64,000 nt of DNA from Alphaproteobacteria bacterium. Its GTDB lineage: Bacteria; Pseudomonadota; Alphaproteobacteria; UBA8366; Aestuariispiraceae. Where the stretch lies: NCBI GenBank assembly GCA_033344895.1, contig JAWPMN010000001.1, positions 2,984,001 through 3,048,000 of the forward strand, given 5' to 3'. The translations under genes and the position numbers were made by a program. Of this stretch, positions 2,291 to 5,970 are shown piece after piece. Under the pieces are notes generated by a model. It did not search any database. It had not been told where the DNA came from and worked only from the letters and a program-made list of their open reading frames with translations. Each line of letters begins with the position of its first letter. Positions within the stretch are counted from its first letter, which is position 1.

Positions 2291-4312
2291 ATGCCGACAG
2301 TCGCGACGGATTATTTCGAACAGTTCGCGGGTCTCTTCATCGATCCGACAAAGCGCATTTTTGTCGGCTACCTCCTGGCCGCCGCCGTGATCGGATTCGG
2401 TGTTCTCTGGATCAAGACCCGTCGGTCGCCGCGGGCGCTCCTGTCCCACCTGTTCCGCCGTTCCGTCTGGCTGTCCGGATCCTCCAGGGCGGATTTCCAG
2501 CTTTTTGCGATCAACCAGGGGATCATGATGGGGCTGGCGCCCCGACTGCTGTCGACGCTGACGGTTGCGACCCTGCTCTTCGAAAGCCTGCATGTCTGGT
2601 TCGCCGGACGGCCGGCGCTCTGGCTCGGCGTGCCGGTCTGGGCGGTGGCCCTGCTGTTCACCCTGACGCAGTTCCTGGTGGATGATGCATCCAAATACAT
2701 CCTGCACCGATGGCTGCATCGCTGGCCGGTTTTATGGGCTTTCCACAAGGTGCATCATTCGGCCGAGACCCTGACGCCGTTCACGGTCTTTCGCACGCAC
2801 CCCGTCGAAGGTGTCCTGTTTGCCCTGCGGTCCGCGCTCAGTCAGGCGGTCTGCGTTGCCGCCTTCGTATTCTTCTTCGGGGATCGCGCGACCCTTACGA
2901 CGGTTCTGGGGGCGAATGTCTTTCTCTTCGCGTTCAATGCGCTCGGTGCCAATCTACGCCATTCCCATGTGCCGTTTTCCTATCCCGCCTGGCTGGAGCG
3001 AATCCTGATTTCGCCACGCCAGCATCAGATCCACCATTCCGACGCCGTGCGGCATTTCGACCGAAATTTCGGCGCGGCGCTGGCGATCTGGGACTGGATT
3101 GGCGGAACCCTGCATCTTTCCGGCGCGCGCCAGCGCATCCGTTTTGGCCTCGGTGACGGGGCGACGGTTGATCACCGGCTTCGCACCCTCTACCTGTCAC
3201 CCTTCATGGAGGCGGCGCAAAGCCTTCATGCGTTCATGTGCAAAGGATGGACTGCAATGCAAAACATCGTTTCGACCCGGGCCCTGACCGCGTTCCGTCT
3301 GGGGCTCGCCGCGCTGGTTGCGGCCGCGGCCATGCTTGCGCTTTCGCCGATGCGCGCATCCGCCGCGCAGGAATTGAACATCTATTCCCATCGCCAGCCC
3401 TTCCTGATCGAACCGTTCATTGAGGCCTATACCGCCGAGACCGGTACGAAGATCAACATCGTCTATGCCTCCAAGGGCCTGGCGCAACGCCTGCAGGCCG
3501 AAGGCGAACTGAGCCCCGCGGACGTCATCCTGACGGTGGATATCGCCCGGTTGAGCGTCTACGCCGACAAGGACCTGTTGGCGACGGTCGAGTCGGATGT
3601 GCTGATGCGCAACATCCCGGCCCATCTGCGCGATCCGAAAAACCGCTGGTTTGCCTTTTCCAAGCGCGCGCGGGTCCTGGCCATCCGCAAGGGAGCCGCC
3701 GACGCGGACAAGCTGACGACATACGAGGATCTTGCCTCCGATGTCTGGGAGGGACGCGTCTGCTCCCGACCGGGCAGTCATGTCTACAACCGGGCTTTGA
3801 TCGCCTCCATGATCCATGCGAATGGCGAAGCGGCGGCGCAGGAATGGGCGCAGGGTGTGGTCGACAATCTGGCGCGCCGTCCGCAAGGGAATGACCGGGC
3901 GCAGGTCAAGGCGATCTTTGAAGGCGTCTGCGATGTTGCGATCATCAACAACTACTATTTCGGCAAGCTGAAATCCTCCGAATCGCCGGAACAGCGCGAA
4001 TGGGCCGATGCGGTCGACCTGATCTTCCCGAACCAGGAAGGGCGCGGCACGCATGTGAACATCTCCGGCGGCGGCGTCGCGATTCACTCCAAGAACAAGG
4101 ATGAAGCGGTTCGTTTCCTGGAGTTCCTGACCTCCGCCGAGGCGCAACGCCTTTACGGAGAGGTCAATTACGAGTATCCGGTAAATCCGGAAGTGCCCGC
4201 CTCCGATGAGCTGAAATCCTGGGGCACGTTCAAGGAAGACGACATGCCGATCGCGACGATTTCGGATTTGGCGCCTCAGGCTCAAATGATCATTGATCGG
4301 GTGGGATGGTAG
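2291..4312 (+). CDS. Fusion ORF: membrane fatty-acid/sterol hydroxylase + ferric iron-binding protein (FutA/FbpA family)
   Basis: One uninterrupted 673-codon frame encodes two proteins that are normally separate. Residues 1 to about 310 are a di-iron membrane hydroxylase of the fatty acid hydroxylase/sterol desaturase family: several membrane segments plus histidine boxes HRWLH (139-143), HKVHH (152-156), LRHSH and HQIHH (245-249). From about residue 323 a signal-peptide-like hydrophobic stretch ends at SAAQE. A complete iron(III) ABC-transporter binding protein follows, with the LNIYSHRQ start and the tandem iron-ligand tyrosines Y555-Y556 in NNYYFGKL. No stop separates the halves. An internal ATG at 3257 with an AAAGGA ribosome site could also produce the binding protein alone. 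The stop overlaps the permease start by 7 nt, so the operon is coupled. The hydroxylase substrate is unknown. Confidence 0.8.
   Translation: MPTVATDYFEQFAGLFIDPTKRIFVGYLLAAAVIGFGVLWIKTRRSPRALLSHLFRRSVWLSGSSRADFQLFAINQGIMMGLAPRLLSTLTVATLLFESLHVWFAGRPALWLGVPVWAVALLFTLTQFLVDDASKYILHRWLHRWPVLWAFHKVHHSAETLTPFTVFRTHPVEGVLFALRSALSQAVCVAAFVFFFGDRATLTTVLGANVFLFAFNALGANLRHSHVPFSYPAWLERILISPRQHQIHHSDAVRHFDRNFGAALAIWDWIGGTLHLSGARQRIRFGLGDGATVDHRLRTLYLSPFMEAAQSLHAFMCKGWTAMQNIVSTRALTAFRLGLAALVAAAAMLALSPMRASAAQELNIYSHRQPFLIEPFIEAYTAETGTKINIVYASKGLAQRLQAEGELSPADVILTVDIARLSVYADKDLLATVESDVLMRNIPAHLRDPKNRWFAFSKRARVLAIRKGAADADKLTTYEDLASDVWEGRVCSRPGSHVYNRALIASMIHANGEAAAQEWAQGVVDNLARRPQGNDRAQVKAIFEGVCDVAIINNYYFGKLKSSESPEQREWADAVDLIFPNQEGRGTHVNISGGGVAIHSKNKDEAVRFLEFLTSAEAQRLYGEVNYEYPVNPEVPASDELKSWGTFKEDDMPIATISDLAPQAQMIIDRVGW
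3242..3259 (+). promoter_or_regulatory. Internal ribosome binding site and ATG for a stand-alone ferric binding protein
   Basis: AAAGGA at 3242-3247 lies 9 nt before an in-frame ATG at 3257. That ATG begins a normal-looking signal peptide (MQNIVSTR, hydrophobic core, SAAQE cut site). Initiation here would yield a conventional secreted FutA/FbpA protein of about 351 residues, independent of the upstream hydroxylase. Confidence 0.5.
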
Positions 4313-5970
4313 ACTCGACGGCGGCTCAGGCAGTTTCTCACGGCGCCGGCAGTCGGGGTGCCGTATGGACTTGGGCCGCCATCTTACTGTGCCTGCTCTG
4401 CGTCACGCCGATCCTGTCGATCTTCGTCGCGGCCGCCGGTGACACCGGCGGATTGTGGAGCCACCTCTTCAGCACCGTTCTGCCGCGCTATGTGGTTAAC
4501 ACGCTGGGCCTGATGGTCGGGGTGACCCTGGTATCGCTGGCCTTTGGCGTGCCGGGTGCCTGGGCCGTGTCGCGTTACGACTTTCCAGGGCGACGGCTGT
4601 TCGAATGGATGCTGCTGCTGCCCGCGGCCGTGCCTGCCTATCTGATCGCCTATACCTATACCGATTTCCTCGAATATGCTGGTCCGGTGCAGGGCGGCTT
4701 GCGGGAGGTATTCGGCTGGGCGAGTGCCCGGGACTACTGGTTCCCCGAAATCCGGTCGCTGGAAGGCGCGTCGCTGGTCATGGGGGCGGTGCTATATCCC
4801 TATGTCTATCTGATGGCGCGCACGGCCTTCAGCCTGACGCCGGCCTCCTTGTTCGAGGCGGCGCGGCTGGCGAACCGCAACCTGTTCTGGTCCGTCGCGC
4901 TGCCCATCGCCCGCCCGGCCATTGTCGCGGGGCTGGCCCTGGTCCTGATGGAGACGATTTCCGACTTCGGCACGGTCGAGTATTTCGCGGTCGAGACCCT
5001 GACATTGGGCATTTTCAACGTCTGGCTGGGGATGAACAGCCTGACCGCCGCCGCACAGATTGCCAGTCTGGCCTTCCTGTTCGTTCTGGCGTTGCTGGTG
5101 ATGGAACGCTACGCCCGGTCTCGGCGGCAGTATTCCGACACCGGGCGCAAGGCGATGCCGATGGCGTCGGTACGGCCCGGTGTCAGTGCTTCGGTCTGGT
5201 GCGTCCTGGTGTGCCTTCTGCCCATCGTGGTGGGGTTCGTCGTTCCGGTAGGGGTGCTGCTCAGCTTCGTTCTGCGCGGGTATTCCCTGTCGCTGGAGGA
5301 CGCGGCGCTGGATGCGGTCCTCAACTCGCTGCTGGTCGCGGGATCGAGCGCGGGCATCGTCATGGCGGTCGCTGCCCTCATCGTCTTCGTGTCGACCTAT
5401 CGCGGCGGGCGCTGGATGCGCATCATGGCGGCGATGGCGTCGGTCGGCTATGCATTTCCGGGGACCATCCTGGCGATCGGTGTCGTGACATCGGTCGGTG
5501 CGCTGGATACTGGCATTTCAGCGGCCGTGGAGGCCGTGACGGGGGTACCGTCCGGGGCCCTGCTGTCCAGCGGGGTTGGGCTGGTCATCTTTGCCTGCAC
5601 CGTGCGATTCATGGCGGTCGGCTACGGTGCGATCACCACCGGCGTGCAGCGGCTGCCACCGAACATGATGAATGCCAGCCGCGTGCTGGGGCATGGTTTC
5701 GCCAGCAGCTTCCGCCACGTCATTCTGCCGCTGGTGCGGACGTCGATCCTGGCGGGCGGCATGCTGGTCTTCGTCGATGTCATGAAGGAACTGCCGATGA
5801 CACTGCTGTTGCGGCCGTTCAACTTCGAGACCATGGCGACGCATGTCTATCAGTACGCCAAGGACGAACTCCTGGAGGAGGCGGCCTTGCCTGCCCTGAT
5901 GATCGTCGCCGCCGGGATCGGGCCGGTCGTCCTGATGAATGCGGCGCTGCGCCGGATTGGGGCGCGTTAG
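4306..5970 (+). CDS. Iron(III) ABC transporter permease, fused two-domain type (FbpB/FutB family)
   Basis: A 554-residue inner-membrane protein with about twelve hydrophobic segments arranged as two homologous halves. Each half carries an EAA loop that contacts the ATPase: about residues 183-205 (FEAARLANRNLFWSVALP) and 454-478 (NASRVLGHGFASSFRHVILP). This fused-dimer architecture is standard for ferric iron permeases of the FbpB/FutB/ThiP group. The start codon lies inside the last codons of the upstream fusion ORF (atggtag overlap), which implies translational coupling to the binding protein and supports iron as substrate. No ATP-binding subunit is encoded next to it or elsewhere in the window, so the ATPase must be supplied from another locus. 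Confidence 0.9.
   Translation: MVDSTAAQAVSHGAGSRGAVWTWAAILLCLLCVTPILSIFVAAAGDTGGLWSHLFSTVLPRYVVNTLGLMVGVTLVSLAFGVPGAWAVSRYDFPGRRLFEWMLLLPAAVPAYLIAYTYTDFLEYAGPVQGGLREVFGWASARDYWFPEIRSLEGASLVMGAVLYPYVYLMARTAFSLTPASLFEAARLANRNLFWSVALPIARPAIVAGLALVLMETISDFGTVEYFAVETLTLGIFNVWLGMNSLTAAAQIASLAFLFVLALLVMERYARSRRQYSDTGRKAMPMASVRPGVSASVWCVLVCLLPIVVGFVVPVGVLLSFVLRGYSLSLEDAALDAVLNSLLVAGSSAGIVMAVAALIVFVSTYRGGRWMRIMAAMASVGYAFPGTILAIGVVTSVGALDTGISAAVEAVTGVPSGALLSSGVGLVIFACTVRFMAVGYGAITTGVQRLPPNMMNASRVLGHGFASSFRHVILPLVRTSILAGGMLVFVDVMKELPMTLLLRPFNFETMATHVYQYAKDELLEEAALPALMIVAAGIGPVVLMNAALRRIGAR

Follow-up and report, generated by a model that had tools for sequence, protein, structure and literature searches.

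The window, a 64,000-nucleotide stretch of alphaproteobacterial DNA, contains an open reading frame (ORF) of 673 codons at positions 2291–4312 (+ strand) in which a membrane hydroxylase, a linker, an internal signal peptide and a ferric-binding protein (SBP) follow one another. The FA_hydroxylase domain occupies residues 127–273 (2669–3109, +) and the linker residues 305–322 (3203–3256, +). The signal peptide spans residues 323–358 (3257–3364, +), with a likely cut at ASA^AQE predicted from its -3/-1 motif, and the mature FutA/FbpA-type SBP lies at 3365–4309 (+). Since no stop codon occurs before 4310, translation of the hydroxylase from 2291 would carry the SBP with it. The upstream gene (813–2234, +) encodes a DUF4856 protein with an N terminus that by eye resembles a signal peptide (PF16148 over a 77-residue stretch, E = 1.5e-11), and the start of a downstream two-domain ABC permease (4306–5970, +; PF00528 over two stretches) overlaps the SBP stop. 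A di-haem oxidoreductase lies opposite this gene group.

The hydroxylase half matched the Pfam family PF04116 (E = 2e-24) with 87 bits against a curated cut-off of 31, and its residues H139, H143, H152, H155, H156, H245, H248 and H249 are invariant among 38 sequences. It is a member of this family, with predicted enzyme activity, and shares the domain and the histidine clusters of the fatty acid hydroxylase/sterol desaturase superfamily, but differs in that its C terminus continues into an SBP. The sole hydroxylase model matched in NCBIfam was the ornithine lipid hydroxylase OlsE (NF052566), an identity that we rejected because the score, 42.8 of 475 bits, is far under the curated cut-off. In the other half, residues 371–648 fall within SBP_bac family matches (best E = 1.6e-18), and its closest sequence relatives in the PDB are the FutA/FbpA ferric-binding proteins 6g7n (E = 2.5e-87) and 2pt1 (E = 3.1e-85), the latter also matching in fold (TM 0.95 over the target, rmsd 1.5). 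Residues Y365, Y499, Y555 and Y556 are invariant in nine fused proteins, align with tyrosines of 6g7n and 2pt1, and are presumably the iron ligands. This half is therefore of the FutA/FbpA ferric type, with iron binding predicted. With FutA1 of Synechocystis, IdiA/FutA of Trichodesmium and FbpA of Mannheimia it shares sequence, fold, the aligned tyrosines, a signal peptide of its own and an adjoining permease; unlike them, it is the C-terminal part of a longer frame opened by a membrane hydroxylase. An AlphaFold2 model of the fused protein, built with 38 aligned sequences, had a mean pLDDT of 90.6 and a pTM of 0.51, so the domains are individually well predicted and their mutual placement is not. 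The only segment of three or more residues with a pLDDT below 50, residues 348–357, sits directly before the likely cut. The in-frame join of a complete hydroxylase to a complete ferric-binding protein, with the signal peptide now internal, was proposed in the initial annotation and is confirmed here as real.

Upstream of the DUF4856-hydroxylase-SBP-permease group, 51 nt before DUF4856, lies a Fur-box-like inverted repeat of 8-3-8 layout, GCTAATGA-CTC-TCATTAGC (762–780, no strand assigned). It agrees at 14 of 19 positions with a Fur consensus, a score reached by none of 200 single-base shuffles, and no second Fur-box-like site turns up elsewhere in the window when up to 3 mismatches are allowed. 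In a survey of 31 loci, again with single-base shuffles and with the DUF4856 start placed manually close to the match in some loci (including L065, L071, L077, L082 and L083), no more than 4 of 200 shuffles equalled the best Fur-like site in 18 loci, and a larger number did so in 13. The repeat suggests iron control of the gene group, the expression of which would probably be switched on by iron shortage via a Fur-type regulator. In 60 of 80 loci the gene immediately upstream of the hydroxylase encodes DUF4856. In Pseudoalteromonas (L098–L113 except L101 and L107) the hydroxylase relative has no DUF4856 directly upstream and no SBP was matched nearby. The AlphaFold2 model of the DUF4856 protein (pLDDT 87.5) is helical and gave no confident PDB match; when it was compared with the imelysin fold, its Z scores of 4.2 against 3n8u and 3.9 against 4ecg were in the range of unrelated helical bundles. 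A literature search on DUF4856 found no papers. PMC3143127 describes iron-uptake operons of the imelysin type that include DUF1111 di-haem proteins. DUF4856 is possibly an uncharacterised component of iron uptake.

A search of 59 nearby genomes found uninterrupted full-length homologues of the fused gene at 10 places in 9 of them, the window's own genome being one, and G025 carries an interrupted copy besides. A broader sample of 385 genomes from the class contributed two more, G148 and G298, whose orders contain the fusion in 5 of 36 and 2 of 10 genomes, respectively. Among the E-value-sorted matches listed for 398 genomes of the phylum, the full-length fusion was present only in G000 and G148. 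The best 80 loci with a hydroxylase relative comprised 13 intact fusions, one broken fusion (L057) and 18 loci in which a separate SBP gene follows the hydroxylase on the same strand. The remaining 48 gave no match to a downstream SBP; in 4 of these the contig ends inside the hydroxylase, several more have little sequence left, and in five (L089, L091, L092, L094 and L097) an SBP is encoded upstream on the opposite strand. Altogether 27 fused ORFs were found, of which L156 is the same as L093, leaving 26 distinct ones: the window and 25 others that are ~44–87% identical, including the near-duplicate pairs L008/L009, L043/L044 and L116/L163 (94–98% alike). A suspected second kind of fusion in G596 (an open frame of 662) proved to be an ordinary hydroxylase of 359 residues when read from its first ATG.

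A careful tree of the joined domains was built from 43 rows, 20 of them fused and 23 separate but adjacent. Fourteen of the fused rows form one group (84/91), 13 of them at 100/99, with no separate pair inside it; we refer to these as the main group. The fused or separate state changes five times on this tree, and four of these changes are forced by starred branches. A single change of state was rejected, as five are needed and 0% of 200 bootstrap trees gave one. A quick hydroxylase-only tree gave 4 changes (3 forced) and a quick SBP-only tree 7 (5 forced), the latter count being inflated by rows that bear the label "no hydroxylase"; in one of them, L015, the contig ends at that point. In the SBP-only tree, L154 and L118, which have no neighbouring hydroxylase, stand beside the main group. 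Relatives with two separate genes, which the initial annotation had named as evidence against the fusion, do exist as overlapping or adjacent genes, but mostly on other branches, and the same-genus genome G001 keeps the SBP without a hydroxylase at that place. The order in G001 is dehydrogenase, SBP, permease and DHOR, with DUF4856 and the hydroxylase absent; the dehydrogenase is 75% identical over 162 residues, and the SBP (L154, region 4380–4900) stands alone with its own ATG after AAAAAGGA. G001 has probably lost DUF4856 and the hydroxylase, in what would be a naturally occurring loss of the front half.

In six unfused loci from the same class (L087, L119, L120, L121, L142 and L143; L122 is the same place as L143), the ATG that we assign to the SBP is out of frame with the hydroxylase and lies close to its stop codon, at positions from 26 nt upstream to 1 nt downstream of where that codon ends. 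In gammaproteobacteria the pairs are mostly spaced; they overlap in L062, L065, L071 and L095, and it is with these relatives that the fused gammaproteobacterial L078 groups. Since unfused pairs overlap or abut, and L078 stands among overlapping relatives, the fusion is best read as an overlapping gene pair that slipped into frame several times. On the tree there are at least four changes of the joined state, mostly next to relatives with overlapping genes, each with a putative direction.

The start signal of the SBP is retained inside the joined frame. The initial annotation had suggested that the ATG at 3257, with its good ribosome site, would allow both a long and a short form, and the sequence agrees: the Shine-Dalgarno (SD) site AAAGGA (3242–3247, +) lies nine bases upstream of the embedded ATG (3257–3259, +; M323), and M323 is the sole invariant residue of the P304–L362 interval in nine fused proteins. 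All 14 main-group ORFs have an ATG at this place, and in these ORFs positions -15 to -12 carry 0.9–1.4 bits, with the rest of -24 to -1 at most 0.9. We tested 23 fused ORFs, the window included (the 27 found less L009, L044, L090 and L156), and 21 have an ATG 18–45 codons before the mature SBP. An SD core precedes 19 of those 21 embedded ATGs versus 29 of 145 other in-frame ATGs; a rank test of duplex energies between embedded and other in-frame ATGs gave P = 6e-5, which is only a guide because the fused rows are related. The exceptions are L085 and L086, in which the ATG is present without an SD core, and L093 and L117, which have no ATG in the 18–45 codon range; their nearest ATGs, with no SD, lie further upstream, at 50 and 42 codons from the matched start of the SBP, respectively. 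In L086 and L090 only a TTG stands behind a GGGGA. The GC content of these five (L085, L086, L090, L093 and L117) is 0.26–0.41 versus 0.61 for the window. As they do not have the usual ATG and SD core, internal initiation should not be assumed everywhere. In the six main-group ORFs tried, of 14, the start region was folded no more strongly than its shuffles; no folded, hidden start region was seen in them.

The region following this start also bears the marks of an exported protein. Of 22 fused ORFs, 21 have a signal-peptidase-like pair of small residues (-3/-1) no more than 8 residues away from the mature SBP motif, the rate for randomly chosen places in the mature protein being 0.48; L078 is the one ORF that fails the strict cleavage-site rule. 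The linker before it is poorly conserved in sequence yet free of stop codons in all 14 main-group ORFs, its mean pairwise identity being 23% in an alignment in which L046 is one codon off. With the ORFs aligned by the embedded ATG instead, and within a parsimony framework that assumes a transition weight of 2 and uses rows selected for being fused, we counted about 256 substitutions in the 18 linker codons, for which about 10.2 nonsense changes were expected and none was seen (P about 4e-5); over the final nine codons the expectation was 7.4, and again none occurred (P about 6e-4). A lineage that had split again would carry the label "separate" in this test, and it is only the tree that argues against such cases. 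A required hydroxylase tail is an unlikely cause of the stop-free linker, since among 69 unfused hydroxylase rows, near-copies counted, the C-terminal tail can be as short as 9 or as long as 49 residues. The joined frame seems to be under selection.

From these sequence comparisons we consider it probable that the locus represents an old overlapping gene pair, within a likely iron-uptake group, that has become one frame, with free SBP made from the embedded start and the long chain serving as a precursor cut by signal peptidase. Most SBP would be made from 3257, exported by the Sec system and released as a free periplasmic protein that serves the adjacent permease. The long chain would also be made; its hydroxylase end, the C terminus of which we take to be cytoplasmic, would stay in the membrane while the internal signal peptide carried the SBP across. 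Signal peptidase I may then cut the chain, so that the signal peptide remains on the hydroxylase as one more membrane helix at its C terminus. Selection would act against stops in the linker because ribosomes translating the hydroxylase have to arrive at the SBP start (coupling), because the precursor matters in itself, or for both reasons.

If coupling were the whole cause, only the SBP made from 3257 and the activity of the hydroxylase would matter, and the fusion would be what happens when hydroxylase ribosomes have to reach the SBP start and one of the overlap frames joins the two. The six unfused loci in which the SBP start comes ahead of the end of the hydroxylase stop or immediately at it, the alternation of fused and separate states on the trees and the position of L078 among L062, L065, L071 and L095 are all consistent with this account, which is plausible, if on the lesser side of an even chance. 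Its probability overlaps with that of the precursor model, since the two share most of their steps. Against it, no separate pair is found inside the main group on the joined-domain tree, and, as the start region is not unusually folded in the six ORFs tried, strict coupling is not needed.

Conversely, the SBP might come mainly or only from the long chain and be released by signal peptidase I one-to-one with the hydroxylase. A frame without a stop, a stop-free linker and a cleavage-type site kept in 21 of 22 ORFs all fit such a scheme, as do L093 and L117, with no ATG in the expected range, and L085 and L086, in which the ATGs have no SD core. However, L093 and L117 do have ATGs further upstream, and throughout the main group, the window included, the embedded ATG and its SD stay conserved in a stretch where almost nothing else does, which a pure polyprotein would not require. 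Binding proteins are also usually wanted in excess over their membrane partners, and overall we regard the long chain as an unlikely main or sole source of the SBP. A joint version can be entertained tentatively, and we doubt it too: a di-iron-type hydroxylase would be obligatorily made with a C-terminal ferric-binding protein that is released by signal peptidase, giving a fixed minimum ratio of the two under iron shortage, with the embedded start topping up free SBP in most lineages and the AT-rich L085, L093 and L117 depending on the precursor alone.

Permanent attachment of the SBP to the hydroxylase, so that it works at the membrane surface or feeds iron to the enzyme, would agree with the single chain and with the one helix that AlphaFold2 draws over residues 297–348, but the low pTM gives no confident domain arrangement, and the histidines of the hydroxylase presumably face the cytoplasm, with the SBP expected to be periplasmic. 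Membrane tethering, as put forward in the initial annotation, is moreover unsupported as a permanent state because the signal-peptidase-like pair is so widely kept; with a full signal peptide and an embedded start retained as well, the iron protein is probably released rather than held at the membrane, and we think tethering very improbable. Direct metal supply or iron sensing by the fusion, also raised in the initial annotation, found no support in these comparisons. The initial annotation's further suggestion, a recently lost stop codon or an assembly error, has next to no chance of being right since assemblies of nine genus codes, independent genomes among them, share the uninterrupted open fusion and its stop-free linker, even if the interruption of the fused copy L013 (a metagenome assembly, in the same record as L057) indicates that such errors occur.

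The organisation that we favour, in which a precursor and an embedded start supply the same SBP, resembles two known arrangements. The fbcH gene of Bradyrhizobium encodes a cytochrome b/c1 precursor in which a membrane protein is joined in frame to an exported protein through an internal signal peptide. The window's gene is likewise a single frame of a membrane and an exported protein with an internal signal peptide, the cleavage of which is predicted here from its motif, but fbcH-type polyproteins have no independent start for the second protein, whereas most of the fused ORFs tested here (19 of 23) keep a separate, SD-bearing ATG for the exported part. Genes with internal in-frame translation starts exist in E. 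coli, and the conserved embedded ATG with its ribosome site would similarly yield an N-terminally shorter product. In the present case, however, the shorter product would be an entire exported protein bearing a signal peptide of its own, and the arrangement looks to have arisen from a pair of overlapping genes. The fused and unfused loci form a natural series in which overlapping genes and a single joined frame alternate with the second start signal kept inside, and they could provide a clean test system for signal-peptidase processing of membrane-plus-exported polyproteins in bacteria. They also link an uncharacterised hydroxylase and DUF4856 to probable ferric iron uptake, and annotation of the ORF as a single 673-residue protein would miss a likely second product.

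The draft genome G037 (contamination figure 6) holds two intact fused copies, L006 and L141, on different contigs. L036 (CP051228.1), in a record titled Mesoflavibacter sp., has a locus with 83–90% protein identity to the window; its fused sequence is that of the same-genus genome G004, and the record title looks wrong for its lineage. Finally, L167 is a divergent fused ORF with a very short linker (hydroxylase 38% and SBP 55% identical) and a GGAGGGA site before its embedded ATG, and is perhaps another independent fusion.
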